IMG/VR virus record: IMGVR_UViG_3300008450_000222
Span: 1-33,487 of that record
Source of the DNA: a virus
Length of the DNA stretch: 33,487 bases
Strand: one strand, 5' to 3'
Both the position numbers and the translations under genes were made by a program. The notes beneath the pieces are model-generated. The model was not told the DNA's origin and made no database searches. It saw nothing but the letters and a program-made list of their open reading frames with translations. Shown piece after piece: positions 2,898 to 33,204 of the stretch. The stretch's first letter is position 1. Each line of letters starts with the position of its first letter.

Positions 2898-2904
2898 TAA
2901 TTAG
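2898..2904 (-). promoter_or_regulatory. CTAATTA element, 18 bases before the ATG at 2879
   Basis: On the minus strand it reads ACTAATTAT, beginning six bases after the TAA of the preceding gene and six bases before GAGGAC. Confidence 0.5.
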
Positions 2905-2907
2905 TCA

Positions 2908-5900
2908 TTATCTTGGTAATCCTTCCATCTCTAATTGTGGAAGTTTGCTGCTAAATCCACCGCCGCCTGATGGTGGTAATTGAATTACATCTTGATTCTT
3001 CTTTAAATCAGCCACATTCATATTGAAAGCCTTGACTCCGAGTAGCTTATTAATCATTAACTTTTGTTTTTCGTCTATTACTTCATTATTTTCTTTTGCT
3101 TCAATTACTGCCCCATATAAGTTTTTTTGTAATTGTAAAAATCTTGCAGGATAAACATCTCTTAAAACTTCCACGGCAGCATCGCTTACATATCTTTTGT
3201 CGGCTATATCTTTATAAATTAGATCTGGATTACGAACATATAAAGAATAAATGCCATATTGAAATTTTTGTTTATCTGTTGGTTCAAATGGTTTTGATAA
3301 TTGATAATTAGCTGGCTTCATAGCCTCCATTTTTTTCTTTAAGAATGCAACTTGCCTTGGACTTGTTTTTGCTGTTTGTTTGGCAAGGAATGGGAAAACA
3401 TTATCAAGTTCATCATAATCACCTTGGAATGCATCAATAACATTTCCTATGCCTTCTAATTGTTTTAGTAATTCCTTGTCTTCTCTATATAGAATATCAG
3501 CTAATTTATTAGAATAAATATTTGGATTTGTTCCCTCTTTCATCTTAAGATCAGTATCGGTTAAGTATCCTACTGGAGCCAATACTGTGTTAAGGATTCC
3601 AGTTCCTGCATATTTATCTGTTAGTGTTCTTACTGCTGTTGCTTGGACTTCGCCTCTTCTGGCAATTACATTAGCAATTGATTCAGTTGCTTTACGAGTT
3701 GCGCTTAAACCTTTTTGCATTAATCCATAATTACGAATTGCTATTGACGGATCAAAAAACATATCAATTGCAGCTTTGGTTGCGAAACCAGTTGCGGTTG
3801 CCGTTCCAATATCTAATCCCATTTGTTGAGCTATAAGAGTAGGAATACCAATAGATGATAGTTCTCCAACTGGACCAATAGGAGTTTTAACTCCTTCAGC
3901 AACTTTACCAGCCATTATTCTTGGTTCAAATGAAATCATAGCGGCTGGTGTTGGGCGAAGACCTTGTGGAGTTCCAACGATTGGTGGAACAACTTCCATT
4001 CCTGCTTCTATTTCTTGTGTATATGGTTTTATCGGAGCAGCAACTAAATATCCTTTTGGAGCTTTTTTAAATTGTAATATCTCTGAAGTTATGTCTTCAG
4101 ACAATATTGGTCTAATATTTTTTAAACCAATCATACCTTGCTTGCCACCAGTTATTGTTTCCGCATAAGCGTTTGCTAAAACTTCTTCTGTGGTTAAAGA
4201 TGGAAGGAATGATTCTACTTCTTCACCATCTCTTGTAGCAATTCTTAATCCACCTCTACCTGTTCTTTCGCTTTTAAGTGTCGCAAGCTCATTATGTAGA
4301 TTAACAGTAAAATCTACAGCTTCTTCAAATTCTTTAATTTGATCCTGAAGTTTTTTTAATTCTGGTGGAAGATCGCCAACAACATTACCCGCATCATCAA
4401 CGATATATTCAGCTTCATTAGCCCACCATTTGTTTAGTTTGCTTTCGTCATAAACATATTTACCATCAGAATTTCGCTTCATCCATTTACTTTGAATTGC
4501 TTTTAGTGTATCGCTTAAATCTTCGTTTGCGGCTGCTGTTCCCTCTTTGTTGGGAATGTTTTTAAAGTCCTTACCAGCCGCTCTGCCTAATTCAGTTCTT
4601 GCATTTTTTATATAGGCTTCAGCATTATCAAATTGGAATTGTAATGTATTCCTTACTCTTCTTTGTGTTTTAGCAAGATCGTATGTTGATTTAATATCTT
4701 CATATTTTAAAGCTCTACGAATAGCATCTGGATCAATATCTAAAACAGTAGAACCTGCTTTTGGAAGAACCATAGAAGCTCCAAACTTTAAAGATTTTTG
4801 AACCGCATTTGTTGTAGCAGCTAAACCTTTAATGATTGATGGAGACAGAAATCCTATGGAACCACCGATTGCTGATCCTTCTGCTATGCCTTGTTTTGAT
4901 CTAATCCACATCTTTGCTGCAAGATCTTCAGCAAATATTTCAGCATCTTCTTTTGTCATTTGAGCTTCACGAAAACCTTCGCTTGCTCCTTTTAATCCAC
5001 CGCCAACGGCACCCGCTCCTGCTCCAGTTAATGTTCTTTGTAGAGCCATAGCAGTTTGAACTAACGGCTTACTCCAACCAAGATTTTCAAAAGATTCAGC
5101 TAATGCTTTATCATAAAGAAACTCTGCTCGCATTTGAATTGCTCTTTGTTTAGCAACCTCACTAACATCTTTGCCAACTTGTAATGCTGTTCCCTTAAAC
5201 TCTGGTTGTATTAATCCAGTAGCTTCTTTTACAACTGCTCTACCTGCTGGTTGTAATCTTTCTGGTAATTTACTTACCACTTTTGTTCCTACTCTGGCAG
5301 CAAAAGCTCTTGCGGGATCTGTAATTGTTGGTCTGCTTGCTGCTTCAGCAACTTCTAAAACTTCTCTTTCGGCAGCATTTAGCATTTGCTGAATTGGAAT
5401 TTCACTTGCTTCTGAAATTGCTCTCTGCTCCATTAAATTTTCTATTTGTCTTGTAGCTATTTCTTCAGCTTGTCCCATAGTTTTTATTTGTGATTTAGCA
5501 AGACGAGCAGTACCTAATCTTGTACCACCTGTCATAGCTCTGCCTAATAAGTCAGCTTCTGCTAAACCACGAACAAGCGTTGCGGCTGCTTTGCCACCAG
5601 TAGTTGCTTGCATACCACGGGCAACAAGTTTTGGAGCAAGACCTTTTACTAATCCTGCGCCACCAGTTGCCAAACCCGCACCTATATCTGAAACCATAGA
5701 TACTGTTGGAAAATATTCACGGCGTCTTTGTTGGGCTGCTGTTCCCATACTTTCTATACCAGCTATATCGGCAACAGAACCAAGAACATCGGTTCCTATA
5801 CCAAGAGTTAAACCAGATATAATACCCTCTGCTGCCGCTCCTAAACCAGCCATAAATCCCGCTGGTTTGTCGCCAGTATCTTTTAATACTGGAGCATTAG

Positions 5901-6129
5901 GATCGCTCTTTAATAAAGCAGCAGTTCTTTTTGCTCTTGCTACTGCTTCTTCACGGGTTATAGGCGCTCCAGAGGCTTCGGCGTTAAGCATAATTTTTTG
6001 AACGAATGGTTCATCAATTGGCTCTTGAACTGGAGGAGCCGCCGTTGTTGGAGCAACAGGTGAATCAAATTCATCAAAAGCATTAGCAGGAGCATCAAAT
6101 TCATCAAACGCATTTTTTTCTTTAGCCAT
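2908..6129 (-). CDS. Large internal virion / DNA-ejection protein
   Basis: 1,073 residues, the third of three consecutive large proteins after the tail nozzle, matching the position of the third ejection protein in T7-type genomes (gp14, gp15, gp16). The start overlaps the previous stop (TAATG) with GGGGA upstream. The N-terminus repeats NAFDEFD twice (6-12 and 16-22), a common opening in phage internal proteins. Several Gly/Ala-rich hydrophobic stretches follow (about 90-125, 150-180, 370-400), which could insert into membranes after ejection. The middle (about 470-620) is charged and helical. I see no lytic transglycosylase or polymerase motif. Role from position and composition; no direct family match. 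Confidence 0.72.
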   Translation of the reverse strand: MAKEKNAFDEFDAPANAFDEFDSPVAPTTAAPPVQEPIDEPFVQKIMLNAEASGAPITREEAVARAKRTAALLKSDPNAPVLKDTGDKPAGFMAGLGAAAEGIISGLTLGIGTDVLGSVADIAGIESMGTAAQQRRREYFPTVSMVSDIGAGLATGGAGLVKGLAPKLVARGMQATTGGKAAATLVRGLAEADLLGRAMTGGTRLGTARLAKSQIKTMGQAEEIATRQIENLMEQRAISEASEIPIQQMLNAAEREVLEVAEAASRPTITDPARAFAARVGTKVVSKLPERLQPAGRAVVKEATGLIQPEFKGTALQVGKDVSEVAKQRAIQMRAEFLYDKALAESFENLGWSKPLVQTAMALQRTLTGAGAGAVGGGLKGASEGFREAQMTKEDAEIFAEDLAAKMWIRSKQGIAEGSAIGGSIGFLSPSIIKGLAATTNAVQKSLKFGASMVLPKAGSTVLDIDPDAIRRALKYEDIKSTYDLAKTQRRVRNTLQFQFDNAEAYIKNARTELGRAAGKDFKNIPNKEGTAAANEDLSDTLKAIQSKWMKRNSDGKYVYDESKLNKWWANEAEYIVDDAGNVVGDLPPELKKLQDQIKEFEEAVDFTVNLHNELATLKSERTGRGGLRIATRDGEEVESFLPSLTTEEVLANAYAETITGGKQGMIGLKNIRPILSEDITSEILQFKKAPKGYLVAAPIKPYTQEIEAGMEVVPPIVGTPQGLRPTPAAMISFEPRIMAGKVAEGVKTPIGPVGELSSIGIPTLIAQQMGLDIGTATATGFATKAAIDMFFDPSIAIRNYGLMQKGLSATRKATESIANVIARRGEVQATAVRTLTDKYAGTGILNTVLAPVGYLTDTDLKMKEGTNPNIYSNKLADILYREDKELLKQLEGIGNVIDAFQGDYDELDNVFPFLAKQTAKTSPRQVAFLKKKMEAMKPANYQLSKPFEPTDKQKFQYGIYSLYVRNPDLIYKDIADKRYVSDAAVEVLRDVYPARFLQLQKNLYGAVIEAKENNEVIDEKQKLMINKLLGVKAFNMNVADLKKNQDVIQLPPSGGGGFSSKLPQLEMEGLPR

Positions 6130-11209: not shown

Positions 11210-11216
11210 TAATTAG
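11210..11216 (-). promoter_or_regulatory. CTAATTA element, 17 bases before the ATG at 11192
   Basis: It reads ACTAATTAT on the minus strand, followed four bases later by GAGGA, and lies in a 38-base intergenic gap. Confidence 0.5.
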
Positions 11217-11230: not shown

Positions 11231-14200
11231 TTAGCCCGCAATTTGACGATCACGAACACGATTTCCACCGCCCTCAACTCCATACTCAAAGCGTAGGTTA
11301 GATAGATTAAAGCCTTGACCTAATGCTCCGCTTACTGGAATATCTTGTATGGATACTTTCATAGCCATACATTTTTGTCGTTGTGGGCGTATTTCATATT
11401 GATAAAGATCAAAGTTTCCACCGTAGGATCCAGAACCATATGGGCTTTGTGAGCCGTAATATGTTGGTATTACTGGTTCTACCGTTATTGTTTGACTTGA
11501 TGCGTTATTGTAGTCGTAATAAAGATTTACTTGTAGCTGGTGATCTGTCTTGTATTCTCCAAGAATATAGAATTTCCATAGCCTTTGGAAACCCTGTATG
11601 CCAGATAGGTTTAACCAACTTGTAGTAATCCCCATAGAATATGGAGTGCCATCATCTTCATATGTATTTGGCGTTTCAATTAATACTTGACCGTTGCTGC
11701 GTATATAAGCTTGTCTATTGTTCCAGATAATGGAATCAACAGCATTTATGCCAGTAAATACGCTCCAAGCATCTACATAATAATCATAAACAAGAACAGT
11801 AGCCGAATCCAGAGTTATACGGATTTGATTGTTTTCATTCATTAGTACAGCAGAGCTTACGAAATCTGGATTGTATGCTTCTACTGGAGCGCCAATATAG
11901 CTTGCTTGTAAGCCACGATTAATTATATAAATACCCTTACTACCCTTAAAGATTAAGCCTTCTGGAGTATTTACGATGCTGCGTAAGTTATTGCATCCTG
12001 TATCGCTTGTGATTAGGATTGTATCGCCATAATCGTTGTTTGCACCAGTATTGTCTGGACCTTGACCTGTAATAAAGCGTATGCTATTTTCTTTAAAAAT
12101 AATTAGCTTATCGTCAAGAGAACCTAATCCAATTACTGGACCGCCAGTTGGATCAACATTTATAACTTGGAAAGCAGACCACTCAACAGGAACCTCTGGA
12201 CTTACTTGTTTGCTATACCAAATTTGTAAAGGATCTTGCGAGTTTAGTAGAAATAATCTATTACGATGAACCACTAAACTTGATGGGGATGGTGGAATAT
12301 CGTTAGGCAAAACATCAGCGGTGGTATAGATTAATTCAACCAAATCCGTATCTGGCGTGGTGTCTGTTGCTGGTGTAATAAATTGATTGTTTGGATCGTT
12401 ATTATTTGCGTTTGTAATTGGTAATTTGTAATATTCAGTTCCATTCGCTTGAGTTCGGTAAAGAACACAAACAACTGGAGAGCGATTATTAGCTGGTATT
12501 TTTTCTGTTAGTGATAGTGGATATAATTGTATATTACTTACATTTGTTCCTGACACGCCAATCTTTTGTGTAAGAGAAACTTGATATGGAACAGATGGGG
12601 CTGAACGGTGTAGATTGCCAGCATTATCAACCCATTCCCATACAGCAACATAGGAATAGTTTTGAGTTCCTGCTCCAGTAGAGCCTTGCATATTATAGAT
12701 TAGTGGATTCCAGTTAAATGCATCTTCTACAAGGCTTTGCCCGTCATAAGCAAAAAGCATACCACCGCCAACAAAAAGGTTGCTGGCTATTTCTGCTCTA
12801 CCATATGATACTTCAGGTTCAAAGAAATCTATCTTTACGCTCGTAATACCAGTTTGTAATTCGCCAGCTATTTCACCAAACTCTGTAATATTACGGAAAG
12901 AACACATAAATTCTGTTGCTGATATTGCATTTGTTTTTGGAACCCATCGTAAAGACCAAGATGGATTTATAGCAATACCGTTTGGTCCAGCAGCAGTTGA
13001 TTCATTAAAACGAGCAATTACTTTACCGTTTTCATCTATGCAGAAATAAGAACTTTGTCCTGTTAATACATTTGCGCCGCCTACAACAAATGCATAACCC
13101 TTACCAGAATAAAAGAAGGCTGCTCCCGCTATGGCAATTTGTTGTTTATCAAATGTAGGACTACTAAAAGCAGCCCCATCAAATATCTGACATCTTGTAA
13201 ATGATTGATTAATGTTATTGGAGTAATCAACAAATACTCTTATCTCTCTTGTTGGTGAATTGGGATCTGGAACAGCCGAAACACGATTAACAGAATAACC
13301 GCTTATTGTTTCAAATTGCACATATTGAAGGGAATAAACATCATCCCAACCATAAACTTTAAATGTATCGCCGTTGCCAAGAGCTTCGCTATAAGCTAAT
13401 GAAGGTCCATCGCTGATGGGATCATAGAATAGCTGTCCCATTTTCATTTGGGAATTTACTATTGTATAAGTTGCTGAAGGAATATTATCTGTTGGCAGAT
13501 CAAATTTCCATAGAGTAATACCCTGTGGAGAAGGTTCCCTGTTAGTCATAGCAAAGTAAATTTGAGTTCCACTTGCTACTGTAGTTATTGCAGCCACATC
13601 ATAGCTTTGATATGTTTGGCTTGGAGAATTATCATTTAATGAATTATCTGTGATAAATTGAAAGCTGACTGTTGCTGCTAAATTACCTAATGGCAATATA
13701 CCACGATAGATACGAAAATCACTTGAGTTGTAATAATAAAATACAAAAACATCATTACAAACAATTACACGAGGATTTCTACCCTGTGCGGTAATGGGAA
13801 CTGGACCAATAATAATTTGTCCTGTAGCTCTATCGTTGATTTGATAATAGGTTGTAAAGATGCCTGCAACTTCACGAACAAATACATATGCTTCCACGCC
13901 AGATGGATGAACGGCATTATCGCTTGAGAAATCACGGGCAGTTCCGTTGCTTATTGGTTTGCTGGTTAGATAAGTTGATTCAAAATCGCCTTTATCTTTC
14001 CAGTTATTTGTTCCTTCAATATATGAATAGATATTGTTTTTATCAAAGCAAAGCAATTCATTTTTAAAATTCATTACTGCCTGACCGTCAGTAATATTAC
14101 CGCCGCCATCAATAACATTTTGACTAACGCTTTGAAAGCCTTCTCGTTTATCAATACGCCCTAATCTACGAAATGTAGCGTTTTGAGCATAAAGAAGCTT

Positions 14201-14284
14201 ACCAAGTTTAACTTGTTTTGGATCAGTTTTTGTGTCTATACCTTGAATAAGCGGGAGTTCTATTTGTTGTCTTTGTAAAGCCAT
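11231..14284 (-). CDS. Tail nozzle / packaged-DNA stabilisation protein
   Basis: 1,017 residues, with GGGAGA before the ATG. The N-terminus (QGIDTKTDPKQV at 14-25, then LLYAQNATF and GRIDKREGF by 50) has the pattern of podoviral nozzle/hub proteins (the T7 gp12 and P22 gp10 group), which list bound 'NA' positions in a beta-propeller platform. The body is a long series of beta strands. The C-terminus (LSNLRFEYGVEGGGNR near 990-1008) is also typical. It lies between the fibre genes and the ejection proteins, as expected for the protein closing the tail below the adaptor. It is longer than P22 gp10 (472 residues) and T7 gp12 (794 residues). Confidence 0.82.
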   Translation of the reverse strand: MALQRQQIELPLIQGIDTKTDPKQVKLGKLLYAQNATFRRLGRIDKREGFQSVSQNVIDGGGNITDGQAVMNFKNELLCFDKNNIYSYIEGTNNWKDKGDFESTYLTSKPISNGTARDFSSDNAVHPSGVEAYVFVREVAGIFTTYYQINDRATGQIIIGPVPITAQGRNPRVIVCNDVFVFYYYNSSDFRIYRGILPLGNLAATVSFQFITDNSLNDNSPSQTYQSYDVAAITTVASGTQIYFAMTNREPSPQGITLWKFDLPTDNIPSATYTIVNSQMKMGQLFYDPISDGPSLAYSEALGNGDTFKVYGWDDVYSLQYVQFETISGYSVNRVSAVPDPNSPTREIRVFVDYSNNINQSFTRCQIFDGAAFSSPTFDKQQIAIAGAAFFYSGKGYAFVVGGANVLTGQSSYFCIDENGKVIARFNESTAAGPNGIAINPSWSLRWVPKTNAISATEFMCSFRNITEFGEIAGELQTGITSVKIDFFEPEVSYGRAEIASNLFVGGGMLFAYDGQSLVEDAFNWNPLIYNMQGSTGAGTQNYSYVAVWEWVDNAGNLHRSAPSVPYQVSLTQKIGVSGTNVSNIQLYPLSLTEKIPANNRSPVVCVLYRTQANGTEYYKLPITNANNNDPNNQFITPATDTTPDTDLVELIYTTADVLPNDIPPSPSSLVVHRNRLFLLNSQDPLQIWYSKQVSPEVPVEWSAFQVINVDPTGGPVIGLGSLDDKLIIFKENSIRFITGQGPDNTGANNDYGDTILITSDTGCNNLRSIVNTPEGLIFKGSKGIYIINRGLQASYIGAPVEAYNPDFVSSAVLMNENNQIRITLDSATVLVYDYYVDAWSVFTGINAVDSIIWNNRQAYIRSNGQVLIETPNTYEDDGTPYSMGITTSWLNLSGIQGFQRLWKFYILGEYKTDHQLQVNLYYDYNNASSQTITVEPVIPTYYGSQSPYGSGSYGGNFDLYQYEIRPQRQKCMAMKVSIQDIPVSGALGQGFNLSNLRFEYGVEGGGNRVRDRQIAG

Positions 14285-15432: not shown

Positions 15433-15439
15433 TAATTAG
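15433..15439 (-). promoter_or_regulatory. CTAATTA element, 17 bases before the ATG at 15415
   Basis: It reads ACTAATTAA on the minus strand, two bases past the preceding TAA stop, with GAGGAC five bases downstream. Confidence 0.5.
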
Positions 15440-18317: not shown

Positions 18318-18352
18318 AAAAAAGGGCTGGCTGGATTTAGCCCAACCAGCCC
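18318..18352 (-). terminator. Rho-independent terminator after the Met-rich small gene
   Basis: On the minus strand GGGCTGGTTGG (18352-18342) pairs with CCAGCCAGCCC (18334-18324) with one G-U pair, around a seven-base loop, followed by six U. The adaptor's ribosome site starts just after the U-tract, so adaptor expression needs read-through or a promoter within the hairpin region. Confidence 0.88.
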
Positions 18353-18383
18353 CAAACCTAAAACGGGAGACGGCGCTTTAAGT

Positions 18384-18805: not shown

Positions 18806-20050
18806 TTATGAAATCTTATTTAGAATAACTGTTGCTGCTGGAACAATTGGTAAATTGCCAATTTGTGCTGTAATCGTCACTTGCGCTTGAGTATCTACCG
18901 CACCAGTAATTGAACCGCTAATACCTACTGGAACAAATGCTGAATTGCTTGAAGTCCAAGTTGGTTCGCCAATAGTTCCCGCTTCAGCTTTTACTGGATT
19001 GTTTGGTTGAGAATCAATAATAACATAAGCATCTAAATCAACAATAGAACCACTTTGGATAGACACTGGATTTGGGCTGATAAATGCATTTAATATTTGG
19101 AATTCAGCTAAACCAATTGTTATTGAACCTGTGACTGATGGAGATAATTCGTTGCTAATTGTTGTATAAGTAATTGTTGGATCAAAGTTGCTTGGGAATG
19201 TAAAGCTAATTGCTCCTGCGCCACCCGATAATTGTGTAGCTGAAGTATTTACTTCTATACCAGATGAACTGCTAAATGCAGAACCTGTGGTTGAACTAAA
19301 TGGTCCAGTATTAACAACAGAAATAACAGCAGGATTGCTGCTTGTATAATTATTTAAAGAATCCTCTGTTGCAGGAACTTGCCATATAACACCGTTTGAT
19401 AATATTAGATTAGTTGATACAATAGCATCAAAGTTTAGATATTGTTGTGGTCTGCCCCACTGTGTTTTATAAACTACAGCAGGTGAATTTACTACAAGAT
19501 CAACTCCAATAATATCTGTTGGCACAAGGAAAGTATCGTTGCCAGCATCTACAATTTGTTGATTGACATTACCAGAAACATTAATTCTTGCTTGTAATCT
19601 ACCCTTGATTGGAGTCACTTCAGAAAAATCTTGAACGATTGTACCAACAAATGAACCAACATATGAGCCAGTTGCGCCAGCAGGGATGATTACGCTTGAC
19701 GATACTGGAATTAAACTGTTAGTATTATCGCCACCGTATGAACCACTTGTGGTAATAAGTTGTAAGCTTGAACCGCTGACATTACCAACATAGTATGTAA
19801 TATCGCTTTGAGTTGCACTTCCCCACGCAGGAACGCTTGAAGTGACAGGGCTTCCACCGCTTACAATTTGAAATTTTGCTGGTAGTGATGGAGAAAAATC
19901 ACCAACAACAAGTAGATTTAATTTATCAATTACGCTAATACCTTCAATATATACAGATGCGGTGTCATCATTTTCAATAGTCAGCGTAAATCTATCTGGC
20001 TGATTTGCTATTACAAATTGTGGTGCGGACAAACTTATATTTAATGACAT
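18806..20050 (-). CDS. Ig-like (Big2-type) virion surface protein
   Basis: 414 residues, with GAGGA before the ATG. It is all beta-rich, with an N-terminal domain (1-190) and a C-terminal Ig-like domain (about 320-413: LNAFISPNPVSIQSGS, PTWTSSNSAFVPV, QVTITAQIG) that resembles bacterial Ig group 2. Residues 253-275 are nearly identical to 533-555 of the next protein upstream (STTGSAFSSSSGI), showing a shared duplicated module. Ig-like domains on phage heads or fibres are known to decorate the virion and weakly bind cell or mucus carbohydrates. The exact location on the virion is unknown. Confidence 0.72.
   Translation of the reverse strand: MSLNISLSAPQFVIANQPDRFTLTIENDDTASVYIEGISVIDKLNLLVVGDFSPSLPAKFQIVSGGSPVTSSVPAWGSATQSDITYYVGNVSGSSLQLITTSGSYGGDNTNSLIPVSSSVIIPAGATGSYVGSFVGTIVQDFSEVTPIKGRLQARINVSGNVNQQIVDAGNDTFLVPTDIIGVDLVVNSPAVVYKTQWGRPQQYLNFDAIVSTNLILSNGVIWQVPATEDSLNNYTSSNPAVISVVNTGPFSSTTGSAFSSSSGIEVNTSATQLSGGAGAISFTFPSNFDPTITYTTISNELSPSVTGSITIGLAEFQILNAFISPNPVSIQSGSIVDLDAYVIIDSQPNNPVKAEAGTIGEPTWTSSNSAFVPVGISGSITGAVDTQAQVTITAQIGNLPIVPAATVILNKIS
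19226..19294 (-). repeat. Duplicated module, copy 1 (in the 414-residue protein)
   Basis: It encodes STTGSAFSSSSGI-x-VNTS-x-TQLS and matches copy 2 at 20489-20557 in about three of four bases, in the same reading frame and orientation, 1.2 kb apart. Confidence 0.8.
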
Positions 20051-20068: not shown

Positions 20069-20075
20069 TAATTAG
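20069..20075 (-). promoter_or_regulatory. CTAATTA element, 18 bases before the ATG at 20050
   Basis: It reads TCTAATTAT on the minus strand and is followed four bases later by GAGGA, in the 36-base gap between the two Ig-like genes. Confidence 0.5.
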
Positions 20076-20086: not shown

Positions 20087-22153
20087 CTAAAAGCCTTGCA
20101 AAGTTCTGTTTATTATTACGGCTTGCGAACTATTCGTTAAACCGCCCGATACAGCAGTGATTTGTATATTGCCATAACTACCTGTAATTCCTAACTTACC
20201 TGTAGAATCTATGTTTGCAATATCGCTTCCAACATTTAAAGTCCAAGATGCTTGGGAACTTACATCAACTCTGCTGCCGTTGCTCTTTAATAAATATGCT
20301 GAATATTGATATTCAGAACCAGAAACTACATTTGCAATTTGTGGATAAACCGATAAAGATACTGGTAAAGCATCTACAACGGTAATTTCTACTTGTGCAT
20401 AGGGATCACTTCCATAATTAGCTGGATTGTCCCATACGCCTATAATGCAACTTCCAGTTCCATTAATAATAACAGAACCTCCACTTGCTGATAGTTGAGT
20501 AAATGAAGTATTTACCTGTATGCCAGATGAGCTACTAAAGGCTGAACCTGTTGTAGAGTTAATGCCTTCGCTAAATTCTACTACGGCAGCAACATTTGGA
20601 TTAGAGGAAGAATAGTAATTAAAAGCCTGTGGAAGAGGTATGGAATCGCCATTTTTTAAATATACCGTTGGCTGTAATTGGAAGTCAAATCCAACATTTT
20701 CTATTGGGCGTGCATTATCAGCAAAACTCCATAGGGTAATTGGACTTCCTAATGTATAAATTTCTGGTTCTGTTATGCCAACAACAAAGGTTGCTGGTTC
20801 AGCAACTATAATGGTAGGATTATCGCCTATCATTACTCTGCCACCAATATTTACTCTATATGAAATAGATGAATTTAAATATCTTACTGCATCTGTTTGT
20901 GGAATCCAAAGAGCAGGATACGATGCAGAACCTTGTACTGTAATGCTGCTTGTGACAGGTACGCTGCCACCACCGCTGCCATATGATGCGGTAAATGAAG
21001 CTGTTGGTGGAGTAAAGTTGCCAGTATAACGAGCAAAGTTGCTCATACGCATCTGAATAAAATACCCATCAGCAGTATGGCTAATAAAGCCTTCGTATGG
21101 GCTATTGCCTAAATCGGTAAAATAAGGTACAGATAGATTGTCACCAAATAGATAATAATTGTTGCAGTAATGTGGATTTAGTGCTACGCTTCTTGTTCCT
21201 GTGCCGCTCCCCGTACCATTAATATAAAATGTGACCGTATCTCCGTTGCGAACAACAGCTTGATGCACCCATTCATTTAGGGGAACTGTTGCACTACTGG
21301 AAATACCTACAACTGGTGGATGTGGAAAGGGCGCTACAAAGTCCTCTTCCATCATAACGAACATTTCGCCACTTTCTAAATAACCTATTAGCGCACCTGC
21401 ACCTTCTACAAAGGGAAAACCAAATGTTTTCCAAACATAACCTGCATCGTTGGTTGGCTGAACATAACCAGTGGCAGGAACACCATAAGAGCGTAAATAA
21501 CTCCACCATTCGTATGTAAAGTTATTTGCAAGCGATGATATTGGTGGATCAAGTGAAAAATTTGATAATTGTCCTAATAACGCACCTTGGCTTACATTTG
21601 GATCGTAATCATATATGGAACTTGTAAAGTTTAATGCATAACCTTGCTGTGTTGGAGGCGAACCGCTTACAACTGGTGGAAGGCTTGGTGGTATTTGTAG
21701 CGAAGCATTATTATTGCTTGTATAAATGCCAAGTGGGTAAGCGGGATTGCTATTATAATCAAGTCCCCAATAGCCAAGGTTTTCGTAATATGGACCAAGT
21801 TGGAGTGGAGGCGCACCTAAATAGTAAAGGCTGCTGCTTGCAAATGGAGCAATAATCCACTGTGTATTGTCACCGCTGCCGCTTGGTAATGGAATCGTGC
21901 CACTTGCTTCTATTGTTGTGGCTGGTGGAACTATATTGTTGCCAACGCCTAAATTTATGCTTCTTTTGCGTAATACTGGATCGCCCAACGAGACAACATC
22001 ATCCTCGTTGGTTAGATATAATGTTTTAATACTTACAGCTTGGGAACTGCTGTTATAGACAATTATATTTACAGGAATTGCGCTATTGCCTAATTGAATA
22101 TATTCACCAGCGACACTTGCCAAGCTGGAAGATATTTGGGCGGTGACGCTCAA
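20087..22153 (-). CDS. LamG plus Ig-like virion surface protein, TTG start
   Basis: 688 residues. The start is TTG at 22153: GAGGA lies eight bases upstream and no in-frame ATG occurs for over 200 codons. Residues about 170-387 form a LamG-like domain (NFTYEWWSYL, DTVTFYING, MRMSNFARYTGNFTPPT), related in pattern to the one in the fibre at 15.4-17.5 kb. Residues 533-555 carry the module shared with the neighbouring Ig-like protein. Residues about 595-683 are Big2/Ig-like (SVYPQIANVVSGS, ASWTL, ITAVSGGL). The gene follows a strong terminator directly, and it probably encodes a surface adhesin or decoration protein. Confidence 0.75.
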   Translation of the reverse strand: MSVTAQISSSLASVAGEYIQLGNSAIPVNIIVYNSSSQAVSIKTLYLTNEDDVVSLGDPVLRKRSINLGVGNNIVPPATTIEASGTIPLPSGSGDNTQWIIAPFASSSLYYLGAPPLQLGPYYENLGYWGLDYNSNPAYPLGIYTSNNNASLQIPPSLPPVVSGSPPTQQGYALNFTSSIYDYDPNVSQGALLGQLSNFSLDPPISSLANNFTYEWWSYLRSYGVPATGYVQPTNDAGYVWKTFGFPFVEGAGALIGYLESGEMFVMMEEDFVAPFPHPPVVGISSSATVPLNEWVHQAVVRNGDTVTFYINGTGSGTGTRSVALNPHYCNNYYLFGDNLSVPYFTDLGNSPYEGFISHTADGYFIQMRMSNFARYTGNFTPPTASFTASYGSGGGSVPVTSSITVQGSASYPALWIPQTDAVRYLNSSISYRVNIGGRVMIGDNPTIIVAEPATFVVGITEPEIYTLGSPITLWSFADNARPIENVGFDFQLQPTVYLKNGDSIPLPQAFNYYSSSNPNVAAVVEFSEGINSTTGSAFSSSSGIQVNTSFTQLSASGGSVIINGTGSCIIGVWDNPANYGSDPYAQVEITVVDALPVSLSVYPQIANVVSGSEYQYSAYLLKSNGSRVDVSSQASWTLNVGSDIANIDSTGKLGITGSYGNIQITAVSGGLTNSSQAVIINRTLQGF
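20489..20557 (-). repeat. Duplicated module, copy 2 (in the 688-residue protein)
   Basis: It encodes STTGSAFSSSSGIQVNTSFT and is the partner of 19226-19294. The flanking residues (YSSSNPNVAAVV against YTSSNPAVISVV) are also alike, so the duplicated unit is probably longer than the core. Confidence 0.8.
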
Positions 22154-22170: not shown

Positions 22171-22204
22171 AAAAAGGGGCTGGTAAGTTTTCCCTACCAG
22201 CCCC
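22171..22204 (-). terminator. Perfect rho-independent terminator
   Basis: On the minus strand GGGGCTGGTA (22204-22195) pairs perfectly with TACCAGCCCC (22185-22176) around a nine-base loop, followed by five U. It separates the small capsid-linked gene from the LamG gene. Confidence 0.92.
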
Positions 22205-22752: not shown

Positions 22753-22801
22753 CTTTAGAAAGAAGAAGGGGAACCAACCAGTTTTAGGTGGCTGGCTCCC
22801 C
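22753..22801 (-). terminator. Weak terminator or attenuator after the capsid gene
   Basis: On the minus strand GGGGAGCCAGCC (22801-22790) pairs with GGTTGGTTCCCC (22779-22768), 12 pairs including two G-U, with a ten-base loop. The tail is U-rich but broken by C, so partial read-through is likely. That would give more capsid than downstream protein. Confidence 0.75.
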
Positions 22802-22825
22802 CTCAATCAACTAAAGAAAGGAACT

Positions 22826-24076
22826 TTAGGCAGAAAGCTCAACTTTGCAGTTAAAGCCCGCAGCATTACAGGCGAGATTGCCGTAGAATTTGGCACGAAC
22901 TTCTCGTCCGTCGTATGATTCTACAGTACGGAATACTTGACCTACGCCGTTGTCATCAAGGAATACTGGTTCGCCTTCATTTGCATGTAGGAGAGTCCAA
23001 GTATCCATTTGTAGCAACCAAGCAGTTTTTGGTTCAACATCACGATCTGGAACAACGATGACTTCGCCTTTTGGACCTTGGAAGCGGAATCCGCTAAATG
23101 ACACCTTTCCTGGACCTTCAAGGCTGGTGTAAATAACATTCGCTTGTAGATCTTGAGCTAATTGTGTATAGCTCTCAAAATCCATGAAGCAGTAATCAGG
23201 ACGACCACCTTCACGGGCAACTCTTGAGATCGCTGATACGATTGCATCTTTGACTGATAGAGAAGTACCATCAAAGACAATACCAGCTAAACGAACTTGG
23301 TCTTTAGCTCTTGAAACACCATAGAATGGGGTTGAAAGAGCAGATGAACTATCGGTAATCCAAGCTGGAAGACCACGAACTTGTAGGTTTAGAGTACCAG
23401 CAGTTAGTAGTTTATCAGCAGCAACGATAGTGGCTGAAGCGCCACCAGCCGTTAAGTCGGCAGCAGCACCGCCGAGAGATAGTGATAGAGTAATTGTGCC
23501 AGTATTACGATCAACAGCAATTACATAATATGTAGCTGAACCAAGTGTGCCTGAACGGGTGCGTTGTAGGGCTTGATTAACTTCAAATTGTACTGATTCT
23601 TGTGGGTTGGTTAGAACAACAATACCAGTTGAAAGGTTTGGTGAAGTACCAACTGTGGCTAATGTGCCTGAACCATCACGGAATAGACCAGATGAAACGG
23701 CATTAGCAAGGCGTTTAACAGCCGCATCAATAACCATTTTAGCGCCCTTGGCGAACGCTTGTTTGCTGGTCATAGAAGCTTCAAGAGTTAGACCGCTGAT
23801 GCGGGCAACTGATAGAAGAACAACAGGGGTGACAACGAACGCTTCAAGATCTTGTGCCGCTAATACAGCTTGAGCTTGAGCGAGAGTTGGGGCAAAACCC
23901 TGTGATGTGGCAATTGCTAATGGGATCTTGGTTCCGTTGCCGCCTTCACCACCTTTCTTATTTACAAGGGCGAAGAATGGGCGATCTGAATAGGAAAGAT
24001 CTTGCATAGCAGGTAGATCATAAAGTTGTTTTAACATCGCATCAGCAGCGACTTGATCAAAATTTACTGAACTCAT
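22826..24076 (-). CDS. Major capsid protein
   Basis: 416 residues, with GAGGA before the ATG. It lies after portal and scaffold, the standard order. The sequence has HK97-fold features by eye: an N-arm, a long 'spine' helix region, then VSRAKDQVRLAGIVFDG and EGGRPDYCFMDFESYTQL (about 275-320), and ends in a beta-rich domain (TAWLLQMDTWTLLHANEGEP). The family is one I associate with uncultured podoviruses, but I cannot name it. It should be the most abundant virion protein; the attenuator after it fits this. Confidence 0.85.
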   Translation of the reverse strand: MSSVNFDQVAADAMLKQLYDLPAMQDLSYSDRPFFALVNKKGGEGGNGTKIPLAIATSQGFAPTLAQAQAVLAAQDLEAFVVTPVVLLSVARISGLTLEASMTSKQAFAKGAKMVIDAAVKRLANAVSSGLFRDGSGTLATVGTSPNLSTGIVVLTNPQESVQFEVNQALQRTRSGTLGSATYYVIAVDRNTGTITLSLSLGGAAADLTAGGASATIVAADKLLTAGTLNLQVRGLPAWITDSSSALSTPFYGVSRAKDQVRLAGIVFDGTSLSVKDAIVSAISRVAREGGRPDYCFMDFESYTQLAQDLQANVIYTSLEGPGKVSFSGFRFQGPKGEVIVVPDRDVEPKTAWLLQMDTWTLLHANEGEPVFLDDNGVGQVFRTVESYDGREVRAKFYGNLACNAAGFNCKVELSA

Positions 24077-24198: not shown

Positions 24199-24205
24199 TA
24201 ATTAG
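24199..24205 (-). promoter_or_regulatory. CTAATTA element in the scaffold-capsid gap
   Basis: It reads ACTAATTAA on the minus strand, 122 bases before the capsid ATG. It is the longest spacing of the intergenic elements in the structural operon. The 158-base gap contains no gene I can support and no sigma-70 promoter that I can see. Confidence 0.4.
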
Positions 24206-25359: not shown

Positions 25360-27318
25360 CTATTGTAATGACGGGGTTCCCGCCGCAACCGCCGCTTCAG
25401 CCATAGGTAATGGACCGCTTGCTGCTGGTAGGGCTAATTGACCTAATTCACTTGGGGCTACTTGTGCGCCAAGTTCTGGTTGTGGCAATTGTGGGATTAC
25501 TGGTTCAGGAGCTTCAAGTGCATTTAGATCACTGATAAACTGACGGAATAACTCAAGTTTTTCTTCACCTTCACCAAGTTTCTTGCCTAATGCATAATAT
25601 TGTAGGCATAGCTTACGGGCTAATTGTAAATTATCAAGTGGATCTGGAGGGGTATATTCTGTATCCTCCAGCATCTTTTCAAAGATTTCTTTTAGATATT
25701 CATCTTGTGCTGTAGATAGGGTATTGTTTGCTTCAATATCAGGGAAGTTTAGCAATTCACGCTGTTCTACTGGATCTATTAGCCCACGCTTTACAAGATC
25801 ATCAATTGCTTCCAAACGCCCTGCTGGTTCAGTTGGTAGTGATGATGCAGGGAAAACACTGATTGTATAATCTTGTTCTTTTAGACGAATTTCTTTTAGG
25901 TCAAGAGCAGTTAATGTTTTAGGATTTGGATTTTTTACTGGATAATGACCAGCGTTGTTTTCAGCAATTTGACGGGCAACACTCATGCAGCATTTAGCCA
26001 CATCAACAAAGAATTGTTCTACATCTTGGCTGAATTCTTGGAAGCGTTCGCTTTCAATATTGTTATATTCAATAAGGGCTTTACCGCTGTTTAAGCCAGC
26101 AGGTTTTTGTGAGAATGCGCTTAATTGTGAAACACCGCTGATTTGATATGAGCGTTGGATAAGCGTATCTACCTGACGATAAAACTCTGGTGGTAAGATT
26201 GGTGGAGTAATATAGGTTGGTTGAGCGCCTGTATATTTTATAATAGTACCAATTTGGTTATTAAAGCTCTCAACTGGAATCTGCGAACCATTTTGTACGA
26301 GAATCTTATAGGAGCCAGCAAGATGGTATGAGCGTTGCATAACAGCAAGTAGCTTATTTAGCTCAAGCTGTGTGCTTTTTAATTGTTCTGCAAGGCTTTG
26401 GCTCCAATAGCCGCTAAATGGTTGAGTCCAAGAAACTCTTGAGAATGGGAAGCGTTTTTCCTTCCAATCACCATAATGCAGGATGCAATCTGGAACAGCA
26501 AGTAAATGCTTGCCTTCTTTCATATCCTCACCAGTGCCAAGATGCCAAGCTTCTAATATTTCTATTTGATCTGTTGCTGGACTTGTTTGGTGTAGATTGA
26601 TAGAAAACAATTGCATGCTTTCTGCAATCTTGTCACGCTTGTCAGGGTACATATCCATGAGGGCATCACGGGAAACAAGCTTTAGGCGATACATATGCGT
26701 TGGAGTGCCACCACCAACGCATTCCAATTCATCCAATAGGATTTCATATGGAATAACACGCTCAAGTTTTACACGGTCATTTTCGCTATAGGTATGGATA
26801 AAGCCATCACCAAATACAAGCGTATCACGAATAACTGAACGGCTAATGCTGTAAATATCGTTTTCCTGAAAGATGCCATCACTAAAATAGCCAAGCTTCT
26901 TTGCAGCCTTAACAGCTTTAAACCCACCAGCATTTGTTAGGAATCTGGCACGGGGTTTTATTTTACTGATCTTTGATAGTAGAGTATCGCAGTTGCTTTG
27001 AACGATATTCATCGTTAAACGATCTGGAAGTACCTGTGGTTGATTCCAAGAGGTTGTTTGGCTACGGAATAAGTTTGCAAAGTAATCTGTAATACCGTAT
27101 AATCTGGATTCTATTCTATATCGTGCAATACGGCTTTGAACATCAGGCTCCAATAGGGCAACCATTTGCTTAACGCCATCTAATACATCATAATCGCTGC
27201 CGCCCATCCACCAAATGCTTTGTGGGGAATAGTTGCTTGTGTCCTTTGTATTGCGAACAATTTTTTTATTTGCATTAACAGCTTTATCGCTGTTGTCTTT
27301 AAAACTCTTATAATCCAT
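25360..27318 (-). CDS. Portal protein
   Basis: 652 residues, GAGGA before the ATG. It lies between the large terminase and scaffold genes. The body has portal features seen in podoviruses: TMNIVQSNCDTLLSKI (about 103-118), RSVIRDTLVFGDGFIHTY (about 161-178), a beta 'wing', a long crown-side helix (SLAEQLKSTQLELNKLLAVMQRS, about 300-322), and SGVSQLSAFSQKPAGLNSGKAL (about 396-417), a motif I associate with this portal group. The C-terminal tail is Pro/Ala-rich. The dodecameric ring forms the DNA channel and binds the terminase and the adaptor. Confidence 0.88.
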   Translation of the reverse strand: MDYKSFKDNSDKAVNANKKIVRNTKDTSNYSPQSIWWMGGSDYDVLDGVKQMVALLEPDVQSRIARYRIESRLYGITDYFANLFRSQTTSWNQPQVLPDRLTMNIVQSNCDTLLSKISKIKPRARFLTNAGGFKAVKAAKKLGYFSDGIFQENDIYSISRSVIRDTLVFGDGFIHTYSENDRVKLERVIPYEILLDELECVGGGTPTHMYRLKLVSRDALMDMYPDKRDKIAESMQLFSINLHQTSPATDQIEILEAWHLGTGEDMKEGKHLLAVPDCILHYGDWKEKRFPFSRVSWTQPFSGYWSQSLAEQLKSTQLELNKLLAVMQRSYHLAGSYKILVQNGSQIPVESFNNQIGTIIKYTGAQPTYITPPILPPEFYRQVDTLIQRSYQISGVSQLSAFSQKPAGLNSGKALIEYNNIESERFQEFSQDVEQFFVDVAKCCMSVARQIAENNAGHYPVKNPNPKTLTALDLKEIRLKEQDYTISVFPASSLPTEPAGRLEAIDDLVKRGLIDPVEQRELLNFPDIEANNTLSTAQDEYLKEIFEKMLEDTEYTPPDPLDNLQLARKLCLQYYALGKKLGEGEEKLELFRQFISDLNALEAPEPVIPQLPQPELGAQVAPSELGQLALPAASGPLPMAEAAVAAGTPSLQ

Positions 27319-27584: not shown

Positions 27585-27591
27585 TAATTAG
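27585..27591 (-). promoter_or_regulatory. CTAATTA element, 5 bases before the ATG at 27579
   Basis: It reads ACTAATTAA on the minus strand. There is no separate strong ribosome site between it and the ATG, so here it sits closer to the start codon than in most cases. Confidence 0.4.
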
Positions 27592-27609: not shown

Positions 27610-29094
27610 TTAAGAAAATAAGTAATCGTTGCCTTCCAGTAGGATATTTTCATTTTCTTCTACCTTACGAAAGCGAGCATTAAGTTCTGCCCGTTCCCGC
27701 TCCAGATCACTCCCTATACGCTGCCAATCCTCAAGTGGTACGGAAGCATATGAATAACAAAAGCGATAGGCATATAGGGCTGCGTCAGCGGCATCAGGAT
27801 GGTAGGAACCATCTTCCTTGTAGATGCCCTTCTCAAGAGCTTTTTTATTCCATATTGTTTTATCCCACTCCTCAATTAAATGCAGATTAGCTGGAGGATA
27901 AACACGCAGCTTACCAGAAACAAAGGAGCTATTCATTATGCGTATAAACGAAACCTTATCCCGTTTATCTGCTGCTTGTAGTGGCAATCCATGATGCCGA
28001 ACAATTTCTTCTACAGCTTGACGATTTGCACCATCAACCACAAACTGATCTATTGGATAATCGTTCATCCATTCACGAATCTTATTTGCTGTGTCAGTGA
28101 TTGTTAAGCCACGCCATTTATCGCTTTTAACTATGTATGTGTGGGGATCATTTTCGTGATAGGCAAGCAGGGCAAACGCAGTTGCATCAGCAAAACCTAA
28201 ATCTATGCCAAGAACATAATTCCAACGCTTCCAACCATAATCTGGAAGGATGCCATCCCAAGCATTACGCTCGCTGTTATAACGATATATTTTACTGCTG
28301 TCATCAACAGTCCATTTGCCAAGGTAATGCTGTTGGAACCAGCTTTGTTCTTCAACAAAGGGATCAGCAGCCTTTAGCTCCGCTATTGTTTCCTCCCAAC
28401 CCTTACGCATAAATGGATTATCGTTTGTAGTCCAAGTAAATACAGTCCAACCCATACGATCAATCTTTTGTGGAGGGCTTACAGGAACATCACGGGTTAA
28501 TTCATAAAAGATTCCACCCTTGCGATCATCTGGAGTTCCTATAAGGCATATAGTGCCACCCAAGTCGGAGCAAGCAGGTTTTAATACTTTATAGATAAGG
28601 CTGTGTAGGTCAATTGTATAGGATGCTGCTTCGTCTATGATGCAAAGGGCATACTTCTTACCAAGTAATTTATCTTTCTCTGCTTCGCTGTCATCCACAC
28701 CAAGGATATAAATAATACTGCCGTTGTCAAGGGTAATTGTTAATTCAGTTTCATTATACTTGGCAGCAATACCGTATTTCTGTAGAATACTTTTAAATAC
28801 ATCCTGCCACATAATACGCTTTGCTTGATCACGGGTTAAACCAATATAAACGGAGCTTGTGCCTTTGCGTTCAATAGCAGTTTTTAAAAGATAAAGCCCC
28901 GCAGTATAGGACTTTGCCATACGGCGTGTCCCAAGCAGGGCTTTCATCTTACTTTTATGTTTTATAAAGCGTGTTTGGCAGGGAAAAGAATCACCTAATA
29001 TATCTGGATAGGTAGGATTGCTTATAAGGCTTTCTACAAGTTTGCGTTCTGCTGGTGTCAGCCTATCCCATATCTCTTCTAATTCTTCTATCAT
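27610..29094 (-). CDS. terL: Terminase large subunit (ATPase and nuclease)
   Basis: 494 residues. Packaging motor with an N-terminal ATPase and a C-terminal RNase-H-like nuclease. Walker A is GTRRMAKS at 55-62 (a variant with K61), Walker B is ALCIIDEA at 149-156 (D154 then catalytic E155), and CLIGTPDD at 183-190 is the coupling motif. The nuclease acidic residues are D298 (GIDLGFAD), D354 (VVDGA) and D437 (AADAALYAY). Start: the only in-frame ATG; the GGAGGG site is 15 bases upstream with CTAATTA between, an unusually long spacing. It begins the structural operon. Confidence 0.95.
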   Translation of the reverse strand: MIEELEEIWDRLTPAERKLVESLISNPTYPDILGDSFPCQTRFIKHKSKMKALLGTRRMAKSYTAGLYLLKTAIERKGTSSVYIGLTRDQAKRIMWQDVFKSILQKYGIAAKYNETELTITLDNGSIIYILGVDDSEAEKDKLLGKKYALCIIDEAASYTIDLHSLIYKVLKPACSDLGGTICLIGTPDDRKGGIFYELTRDVPVSPPQKIDRMGWTVFTWTTNDNPFMRKGWEETIAELKAADPFVEEQSWFQQHYLGKWTVDDSSKIYRYNSERNAWDGILPDYGWKRWNYVLGIDLGFADATAFALLAYHENDPHTYIVKSDKWRGLTITDTANKIREWMNDYPIDQFVVDGANRQAVEEIVRHHGLPLQAADKRDKVSFIRIMNSSFVSGKLRVYPPANLHLIEEWDKTIWNKKALEKGIYKEDGSYHPDAADAALYAYRFCYSYASVPLEDWQRIGSDLERERAELNARFRKVEENENILLEGNDYLFS

Positions 29095-29099: not shown

Positions 29100-29106
29100 T
29101 AATTAG
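29100..29106 (-). promoter_or_regulatory. CTAATTA element between ribosome site and terL start
   Basis: It reads TCTAATTAT on the minus strand, placed between GGAGGG and the ATG at 29094, five bases from the latter. Transcription starting at or past it would yield an mRNA without that ribosome site. Confidence 0.4.
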
Positions 29107-29141: not shown

Positions 29142-29489
29142 TTAATAAGAAACAGGAATACCACTTGCAGCAAGACGATCTAACATATCGTAATAAGCGG
29201 CATCACCTCCTACATTCTGCTGCATCTGCTTAACCATCTTTGGATTTCCCATAAGAATAATAGTTCCACGATGTGGAGGAAACTCTTTATTTATTGGAAG
29301 GTTCGCATCGTCCGCAACCCCAATACCACAGCCTTCGGTACTGGAGAATACAATTTTAACTTCTTTAGTTCCAAGCATAGAGTGCAACCAGTTTTGTGTA
29401 TGGGGATAATTGTGCTTACCATAGTGGCAATCAATAACTCTACCATCCGATCGGATTGCTGCGTAGCCATAAGTATTATTATTATTCAT
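29142..29489 (-). CDS. Early-type hypothetical protein, 115 residues
   Basis: Preceded by its own sigma-70 promoter (29552-29524) and GGAGAC, five to six bases before the ATG. The sequence contains GYAAIRSDGRVIDCHYG at about 8-24 and GCGIGVADDA at about 54-63, then a Met/Gln-rich stretch and ends in ASGIPVSY. No domain is recognised. Its leader (GGAGACAGGG-ATG) is almost the same as that of the next two upstream genes. The separate promoter and lack of homologue fit an early or host-takeover gene, which is inference. Confidence 0.72.
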   Translation of the reverse strand: MNNNNTYGYAAIRSDGRVIDCHYGKHNYPHTQNWLHSMLGTKEVKIVFSSTEGCGIGVADDANLPINKEFPPHRGTIILMGNPKMVKQMQQNVGGDAAYYDMLDRLAASGIPVSY

Positions 29490-30165: not shown

Positions 30166-30179
30166 GCCCCATCTTCCAC

Positions 30180-30547: not shown

Positions 30548-30576
30548 TTGACAAGCGGTTGCATTCGTAATATACT
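30548..30576 (+). promoter_or_regulatory. Rightward consensus sigma-70 promoter 3
   Basis: TTGACA, 17 bases, TATACT. The start would be near 30583, about 40 bases before the 3' end of the small terminase gene, which is on the other strand. RNA from here is antisense to that gene unless it ends early. Confidence 0.8.
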
Positions 30577-30624
30577 GTAATATAAGGCAAATATTAATTT
30601 TCTTAATACTGAATACCATTCATT

Positions 30625-31167
30625 TTACTCTTCATCTAACCCTTCACGCTTACGGACTGCAACCACCAATTCCCTTAATTTACCTATTTTTTCTTCGTCT
30701 GTCATAATCTTTACTGCTACTTCCTGTCCCTCATTACCCATGTTGCACATACGGGCTAATATCTCCAAAGCTTTTATACGCCCTCCTAACTTAAAACTCA
30801 TCCGATCCCCATCTACTTGAACTTCACTTATTGCCATCCGTAGGGCTTCAGGCATCTCGCTAATAGGTTTTAAACTTTTACCCCTCATCATATCTTTGGG
30901 ATCTGCAAATGCCATAGCTTGTAAATTTTCTAGCGTCTTGCTTGCAATTCTTTCAAGGGCTATGGAGGGAACAAGGGCGTGTTTCTGGAATAGGGGTTCA
31001 TACTTCTTTTTTAGATTCCCTCCACGGGTTGCTGCTGTTGCTCTGCTTGCATTTGGGAAAGCTCCCTTGTATGCTTCAGTTGCACTTTGACCTTGGTATA
31101 GATTGTTGATAAACTTTTTATGTGTCTCTGGTAGTGCTATGTATTGGGGATCCTTTTCTATTGACAT
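30625..31167 (-). CDS. terS: Terminase small subunit
   Basis: 180 residues, with GAGGA before the ATG. It recognises phage DNA for packaging with TerL. The N-terminal part (HKKFINNLYQGQSATEAYKGAF, about 15-36, then a Ser/Arg/Ala-rich helix RATAATRGGNLKKKY, about 42-56) has the helix-turn-helix pattern of small terminases of the Terminase_2-like group. FKLGGRIKALEILARM (about 124-139) matches the 'K-AL-xL' oligomerisation helix of that group, and the C-terminus is charged. Here it is 1.5 kb from terL, separated by the control region and three small genes, rather than adjacent. Confidence 0.85.
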   Translation of the reverse strand: MSIEKDPQYIALPETHKKFINNLYQGQSATEAYKGAFPNASRATAATRGGNLKKKYEPLFQKHALVPSIALERIASKTLENLQAMAFADPKDMMRGKSLKPISEMPEALRMAISEVQVDGDRMSFKLGGRIKALEILARMCNMGNEGQEVAVKIMTDEEKIGKLRELVVAVRKREGLDEE

Positions 31168-31170
31168 GCT

Positions 31171-31380: not shown

Positions 31381-31381
31381 T

Positions 31382-31960
31382 TTAGTTTGTCTCCGTTAAT
31401 ATCTTTAGTGCTTTCTCTGTTAGGGCTACTCGTTTGTCGTGATGAAGTTTTGCTGCACCATTAATTCGCTTTGTGATCTCGTCAAGATTCCATATATCAG
31501 CATAACCATTTAGATCTTTACCCTTCCAGTATTGTAGGGCTATGCGTGTGCTTATTTCGGGATCTTTTGCCCTTTCTGGATAGTTTATAAGATCAACTCC
31601 TATTTCGCTTCCATATTTGTTGTAGTTATAGCGACCTGTTATTTGTATGATGCCTCTGCCAATATACTTGACTCCGTCTCCAGATACATAATTTCCTAAA
31701 GTTTTACGACCTTCGTATAAAGTCCCTGTGGCTTCTTCTTTGTTGGTGGGATCTTTTTTGTTCCACTTGCTTGGTAATTCTTCATCGTATTTTAGTTCTC
31801 CCGATTCCACACCTATTTGTCCGAGGAATGCTGCTATGCGCTTTGGACTTGTCATACCGTATTGTGGGAACCATTCATTAAATGCCTTGCAGTATGTTCT
31901 TATCTTTGGCTTTCCTGCTGTTGGAAAGATTCTTCCAAGTTGATTTTCAGTTATTAACAT
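31382..31960 (-). CDS. GH19-type endolysin (chitinase-like lysozyme)
   Basis: 192 residues. I use the ATG at 31960, which has GGAGAG six bases upstream; an earlier in-frame start at 32011 would have no ribosome site and would overlap the preceding gene by 65 bases. The fold is that of GH19 chitinase-type phage endolysins, which cut the glycan strands of peptidoglycan. RIAAFLGQIGVESGEL (41-56) holds the catalytic Glu52; the second acid is probably Glu60 or Glu61; GDGVKYIGRGIIQITGRYNY (95-114) is the family's signature. No signal peptide or anchor is visible, so it needs a holin. Confidence 0.9.
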   Translation of the reverse strand: MLITENQLGRIFPTAGKPKIRTYCKAFNEWFPQYGMTSPKRIAAFLGQIGVESGELKYDEELPSKWNKKDPTNKEEATGTLYEGRKTLGNYVSGDGVKYIGRGIIQITGRYNYNKYGSEIGVDLINYPERAKDPEISTRIALQYWKGKDLNGYADIWNLDEITKRINGAAKLHHDKRVALTEKALKILTETN

Positions 31961-32402
31961 TTGTTCTCTCCAAGCAATATGGATTATAAATCCAGTTGCT
32001 GAATCTATCATCCTCTTTTAGTTTTGCTTCTACCCATATTGGTGAAGGGCGATGTGTGTATAGTAAATGTGTTCCGCCTAATTGACTTATTAGTTTGTTG
32101 GCTACTCCTGCACCACGATATGGATGCTTAACATAAATATAATGTATTGTGTTGTTGCCCTCGCCTACCATCCAACCATATATATGTTCTGGAGTGTCAC
32201 TATTAGCGGCAACTACAATCCAAGTATCTTCCCTTGCCAGTAGCCTGTCTATTCTATGGCGCTGTTCTATATTGTAGATTGGGGCAGGTATTGCCCTGCC
32301 CCATCCACTTTCTTTATAACTTTTCATCCAAGTGCTGTAAAGAAAAGCTTCATCACTGGTTGAGTCATAAGGTCTGATGCTTACTGAATCAATAAATTCC
32401 AT
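31947..32402 (-). CDS. GNAT-like acetyltransferase
   Basis: 151 residues, weak AGG site, overlapping the endolysin by 14 bases. HYIYVKHPYRGAGVANKLI (about 87-105) matches the acetyl-CoA-binding motif A (R/Q-x-x-G-x-G/A) of the GNAT fold, with the beta strand before it and the helix after. WIVVAANSDTPEHIYGWMVG (about 61-80) is the preceding beta hairpin. GNAT-like genes next to lysis genes occur in other podoviruses. Substrate unknown; the C-terminal part is atypical, so activity is not certain. Confidence 0.75.
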   Translation of the reverse strand: MEFIDSVSIRPYDSTSDEAFLYSTWMKSYKESGWGRAIPAPIYNIEQRHRIDRLLAREDTWIVVAANSDTPEHIYGWMVGEGNNTIHYIYVKHPYRGAGVANKLISQLGGTHLLYTHRPSPIWVEAKLKEDDRFSNWIYNPYCLERTNVNN

Positions 32403-32403
32403 A

Positions 32404-32943: not shown

Positions 32944-33178
32944 CCCATCTGCTCTCCCGTTTTTCAACAGCTTCTACATATTTCATTAAGAGTTCTGAAA
33001 TGACACCATTCACATAAAGATGTCCTCCTTCAGCCCTAATTCGCTCACGCTCTCTCTGAAATGCAGCAGTAAATCTTCTTAAAACAGCCTTTCTTAACCT
33101 GATGTTATAACTTAAAGTATCTTCTTTGTAGTTTAAAGTACCTCTACGCTTTCCAGAACCATCGTATCCATTAGCCAT
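32888..33178 (-). CDS. Putative ribbon-helix-helix DNA-binding protein
   Basis: 96 residues, GGAGAC six bases before the ATG. Residues 23-38 (SYNIRLRKAVLRRFTA) read as a strand plus helix, and 55-71 (YVNGVISELLMKYVEAV) as the second helix, the RHH (Arc/MetJ) pattern with an unusually long first helix. The end is charged. As the first gene after a terminator/antiterminator leader it may be a regulator of the operon or of its own synthesis. The RHH call rests on the pattern alone. Confidence 0.65.
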   Translation of the reverse strand: MANGYDGSGKRRGTLNYKEDTLSYNIRLRKAVLRRFTAAFQRERERIRAEGGHLYVNGVISELLMKYVEAVEKRESRWDAKETRERDALDIQGRKE

Positions 33179-33197
33179 TTGTTTGTCTCCTATTGTT

Positions 33198-33204
33198 TAA
33201 TTAG
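33198..33204 (-). promoter_or_regulatory. CTAATTA element, 19 bases before the ATG at 33178
   Basis: It reads ACTAATTAA on the minus strand and lies between the terminator U-tract and the GGAGAC ribosome site, so transcription starting here would bypass the terminator. Confidence 0.5.

Follow-up and report, generated by a model that had tools for sequence, protein, structure and literature searches.

A conserved CTAATTA element before gene blocks of an uncultured podophage-like virus, best explained as a late-promoter core

The virus record and its relatives

The window, that is, the whole stretch of DNA analyzed here, is an entire virus record of 33,487 bases, classed as linear, and represents a fragment that carries mainly late genes. 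Nearly all of its genes lie on the minus strand, and they include a podophage-like packaging and structural block with the small terminase subunit (30625-31167), the large terminase (27610-29094, minus strand, with its ATG at 29094), the portal (25360-27318), and the major capsid protein (22826-24076, minus strand, with its ATG at 24076). An endolysin is encoded at 31382-32011 and a protein with an internal-virion match at 11231-14284; a search with this protein gave weak, partial matches only, and a Pfam search with the small proteins of the window returned nothing convincing. Coding sequence occupies approximately 91% of the window, somewhat below the figure of about 95% given in an earlier note on this DNA.

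Two contigs with 99.9% identical DNA and several relatives are present in the same public collection. Among isolated phages, the capsid and portal proteins found no match and the terminase found distant matches only. In the relative G002 (26,099 bases), the portal and capsid proteins are 69% and 64% identical to those of the window, respectively, with other shared proteins at 25-62%. A search of viral contigs with the end sequences of the window gave no match by which either end could be extended. In the near-identical contig 3300008267_001659 (L010, L011), approximately 159 bp are missing within the portal gene (window 25479-25637), an in-frame difference near the C-terminal end of the protein. 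Also within coding DNA, a 68-bp repeat with 81% identity occurs in two adjacent genes of the window, at 19227-19294 and 20490-20557.

Placement of CTAATTA in the window

The gene (minus) strand of the window carries 15 copies of the heptamer CTAATTA and the plus strand carries one, at 33305, where it forms part of the palindrome TCTAATTAGA. A recount found all 15 minus-strand copies, including the four inside genes, at the positions the earlier note had listed. Two checks that the same note had suggested, a count in shuffled sequence and a comparison by strand and position, have been carried out. In the window as a whole, 16 copies were observed against 8.97 expected, a number reached by 0 of 100 shuffles; this excess is modest taken alone, and it is strand and place that are decisive. 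The density is clearly unequal, with 15 copies against 1 by strand and with 11 of the 15 gene-strand copies touching non-coding DNA, which makes up 8.7% of the window, and the remaining 4 in coding DNA (Fisher p = 3.5e-9).

CTAATTA is the most frequent 7-mer in the non-coding part of the window (2,885 nt), where its 11 gene-strand copies compare with 0.39 expected and a maximum of 4 in 2,000 simulations; the other strand of the same DNA holds one copy. Words made by permuting its letters have a mean of 0.57 copies in the window and G002 combined, and its single-base variants show no upstream enrichment. A chance origin of the pattern was considered and is ruled out by the shuffles, the non-coding enrichment, and the permutation counts. 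The extended form WCTAATTAW has 10 gene-strand copies, all of them non-coding, and none on the other strand, and A/T flanks are found in none of the four coding copies. Only seven bases are fixed in the element, these being the seven letters of the heptamer itself.

All of the non-coding copies described here are on the minus strand, and eight gene blocks, beginning at 33178, 29094, 27579, 24076, 20050, 15415, 11192, and 2879, have CTAATTA upstream. In five cases it precedes the ATG by 17-19 nt: 33198..33204 (19 nt before ATG 33178 of a 96-aa gene, with a GAGCC..GGCTC hairpin and T run just upstream of the site), 20069..20075 (18 nt before ATG 20050), 15433..15439 (17 nt before ATG 15415), 11210..11216 (17 nt before ATG 11192), and 2898..2904 (18 nt before ATG 2879). 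Two copies stand much closer, each 5 nt from the start codon, at 29100..29106 before the large terminase and at 27585..27591 before ATG 27579 of an 85-aa gene located between terminase and portal. These seven distances are the same as those first described. The copy at 24199..24205 lies 122 nt upstream of the ATG of the major capsid gene, two more are in the non-coding DNA ahead of gene 33178, at 33306..33312 (no start codon nearby) and at 33332..33338 (followed by TCTTAAGAGCAAAC), and a last one, followed by AGTAAAGAAGG, lies at the left end of the window, also in non-coding DNA (311..317). The earlier note had also described the sequence between the element and the ribosome site as alike; what recurs is mainly the ribosome site AGAGG itself, 4-5 nt after CTAATTA; the copies at 24199 and 33332 have AGAGC there and no start codon.

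Every CTAATTA-bearing block comes after a gap of 26 nt or more (30 nt before 27579), and no gene separated from its neighbor by 17 nt or fewer has CTAATTA in front of it. The larger gaps before 25176, 22709, 22153, and 18303 hold no copy; those before 22709, 22153, and 18303 contain terminator-like hairpins, and that before 25176 is without explanation. The hairpins are all on the minus strand, at 22765..22804 just after the major capsid gene, at 22176..22204 before gene 22153, and at 18323..18353 before gene 18303, the latter two with a T-run. They directly precede their genes with no CTAATTA in between, similar hairpins are seen at comparable places in G002, and they may reduce transcription of the genes downstream. 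Three of the CTAATTA sites have a further recurrent sequence, AATAGTTCGGCT or AATAGTTCGC, in the non-coding DNA upstream of them, at 33367, 33245, and approximately 20100 (minus strand), and the copy at 33245 forms the right arm of a terminator-like hairpin.

A second type of upstream sequence is present in the window. The small minus-strand ORFs at 29489, 29803, and 30117 are preceded not by CTAATTA but by sigma70-like promoters with 17-base spacing. Two promoter classes would thus split the genes of the window, as expected for early and late genes, with the timing itself presumed. The promoters of these three ORFs are strong (TTGAC-17-TATAGT or similar), each being followed by GGAG..GGGATG, and further sigma70-like promoters lie on both strands at 30.2-30.6 kb.

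Conservation and drift among relatives

In G002, the gene strand carries exactly four copies of CTAATTA and the opposite strand has none, and all four lie before orthologs of motif-bearing window genes (pairs of 85/86, 414/459, 371/364, and 387/380 aa, window and G002, respectively). The copies at 20069, 15433, and 11210, for example, are conserved before G002 genes 8908, 15064, and 19324. Only 7-10 of the 30 positions upstream agree between orthologs, with the heptamer intact. In three other relatives with portals approximately 74% identical (L012, L013, and L014), CTACTTA with differing flanks is found before the ortholog of the small gene, at the place corresponding to 27585, and G002 likewise has one CTACTTA, before gene 5956. 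Neither word occurs before late genes in L170 and L175, whose portals are 72-74% identical, nor was any such word found in relatives at approximately 35%, and motif discovery in about 30 loci of distant relatives yielded no shared word. The copies at orthologous places, the CTACTTA variant, and the absence elsewhere together indicate that CTAATTA is a trait of this lineage, one that by sequence comparison appears to drift (CTAATTA to CTACTTA). L170 and L175 have CTTCTATTGRTCAATAG in common before an orthologous gene (upstream of 1290 and 6581, respectively), possibly a different regulatory word.

A predicted late promoter and its possible readers

CTAATTA seems best explained as another instance of an already known type of late promoter, and it is probably the -10-type core at which host RNA polymerase acts together with a phage-supplied specificity factor. 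That factor, most likely a late sigma factor, would redirect the host enzyme to CTAATTA, where the DNA would be opened, and RNA would start approximately 5-6 bases downstream, each copy driving one block of late genes. The resulting leader would be very short, with its 5' end at the ribosome site AGAGG or immediately ahead of it, and the large terminase and the small gene that precedes the portal would be expressed from mRNAs with no leader. If the register of the T4-like phage Aeh1 is applied, with CTAATTA beginning at -12, both of the 5-nt sites would start exactly on the ATG (at 29100, the predicted +1 is the A of the terminase ATG), and most others would start at or just before AGAGG.

Several well-described phages offer points of comparison. 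The late promoters of T4 carry TATAAATA at -13 to -6, and the late element of Aeh1 is CTAAATA, starting at -12 (PMC1524935). Like the T4-type promoters, which are read by the gp55 sigma, CTAATTA is a single short, A/T-rich, near-invariant element that immediately precedes late genes on the gene strand, and it is one base apart from the Aeh1 word, the start position in the window being a prediction. Unlike the T4-type phages, the window phage is podophage-like by gene content, and the fragment yielded no gp55 homologue. The podophages phiEco32 and 7-11 rely on host polymerase and a phage sigma, with early genes using sigma70; in phiEco32, the sigma factor gp36 is associated with middle and late promoters made up of a single element, tAATGTAtA, with starts 6-8 bp downstream, and phage 7-11 has late promoters of the form GTAAtg-16-aCTA (PMC8948821). 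The word in the window differs from both of these, and no homologous sigma was found in the window.

The earlier note had offered a late promoter core, an RNA processing site, and a translation enhancer as possible roles, and placement, spacing, and folds have left the first as the best supported and counted against the other two. An enhancer upstream of the ribosome site that boosts initiation, much as the leader of T7 gene 10 does with its upstream A/U-rich portion, could account for the five copies found 17-19 nt before an ATG with AGAGG in between, and that cluster of distances is equally expected from a translation signal. Such an enhancer would nevertheless have to act without a nearby start codon at 24199, 33306, and 33332, and from between any ribosome site and the ATG at 29100 and 27585; moreover, in G002 it is found at varying distances from the ribosome site, so that its place is fixed relative to neither ribosome site nor ATG, the genes internal to operons do without it, and all seven of its letters are fixed. 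A role in translation is thus improbable, and the promoter is favored over a translation signal because of the variable distance to the ATG, the copies without a start codon, and the absence of copies inside operons. Cleavage in or near CTAATTA to separate late mRNAs would suit the intergenic position of the sites and the two strong hairpin terminators in the same operon, but folds at seven sites are no more stable than those of shuffled sequence (z -1.84 to 1.08), no structure is common to the sites, and we know of no nuclease site that would match so strict a sequence conservation; we consider this very improbable.

Parallels to the predicted promoter exist outside of the podophage-like lineage. 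Flavobacterium phage immuto has a late-gene motif, TATTTATA (often CTATTTAT), with 13 of 14 copies of TATTTATA upstream of genes, and its heptamer CTATTTA is one base from CTAATTA; immuto differs from the window phage in belonging to the T4-superfamily, in its longer and more A/T-rich motif, and in having genes without clear ribosome sites. Three marine T4-superfamily records in IMG/VR (G017, G018, and G020) have the identical CTAATTA directly before late genes. They are related to one another, their proteins are unrelated to those of the window, and their nearest isolates are immuto, Mel-JY01, and RM378. T4-superfamily records of this kind were found by scanning for CTAATTA, and the independent evidence consists of separately fetched parts, which, read by eye, place 4 of 8 CTAATTA just before a start codon in G017, G019, and G020 and 0 of 4 in two other scanned records. 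The parallels from immuto and the marine T4-superfamily agree with a T4-style reading of the element, common descent of the factor being a claim beyond this comparison.

It is tempting to suggest that a T4-style late factor operates in this podophage-like, non-T4-like lineage, with CTAATTA shared with the marine T4-superfamily and some late mRNAs, such as that of the terminase, starting on the ATG, and we put this forward as an unlikely proposal. Were such a factor the reader, then either late factors or the words they recognize would have passed between phage families or arisen in them by convergence, and starts on the ATG, if real, would provide a simple test case for leaderless late mRNAs in phage. 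In a broader scan of viral contigs for CTAATTA followed by a ribosome site and ATG, the matches listed were mostly due to chance, and 113 loci among them showed a small excess beyond the selecting match; therefore, no general viral role is claimed for CTAATTA. In the literature, the one phage promoter paper among the papers listed for CTAATTA, on the KP34 group, contains the letters by coincidence beside a different motif.

As to the reader, a short, nearly invariant word before late genes, together with a podophage-like set of genes that includes a match to an internal virion protein, might call to mind the promoter core of a phage-encoded, single-subunit RNA polymerase of the T7 type. The T7-type polymerase family PF00940 was absent, however, from the 22 records searched (the window plus 21 others that are related or comparable, of which five span 52-57 kb), with T7 as positive control. 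Promoters of the T7 type are approximately 18-23 bp long, against just 7 bases fixed here, and such a polymerase is a very improbable reader. A host alternative sigma that reads the promoter with no phage factor, the phages sharing the word through hosts that share the sigma, is in keeping with CTAATTA before late genes of the unrelated T4-superfamily records, with a window in which no phage sigma is detectable, and with the weak -35-like TTG described below. It fits less well with a word that drifts in the lineage, to CTACTTA in L012-L014 and to absence in L170 and L175, a pattern that a change of host could also explain, and we regard it as unlikely. A scan of genome contigs with one long version of the element gave no match.

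A phage sigma or similar factor is the most likely reader of the proposed late promoter, given the lack of a T7-type polymerase in the relatives searched and a weak TTG at -35 spacing. This TTG occurs at 7 of 15 sites against a 10% background, in a pattern picked after inspection, and hints at sigma-type recognition. The earlier note was right that the window, itself a fragment, shows no gene for a phage RNA polymerase or sigma factor, and no sigma factor was found in the window, in G002, or in close relatives, all of which are fragments. This negative result speaks against the promoter reading, as do the larger gaps that lack a copy and the absence of both CTAATTA and CTACTTA before late genes of L170 and L175. 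Searches for gp55 (phrog_234) likewise gave no match in the window or its fragmentary relatives, with T4 as positive control; immuto gave a weak match only (E 0.008), and a PHROG scan of ten immuto proteins revealed no sigma. The result is a map of predicted late transcription in a phage lineage that is uncultured and has no close isolate. Late promoters, and the way they drift in a lineage, can be defined by comparative analysis alone, which provides a handle on the missing late factor. G037, distantly related to the portal lineage of the window, carries a sigma-like ORF of 155 aa (L235 1105-1572, minus strand), the product of which matches phage RNA polymerase sigma families (phrog_1740, Sigma70_r4).
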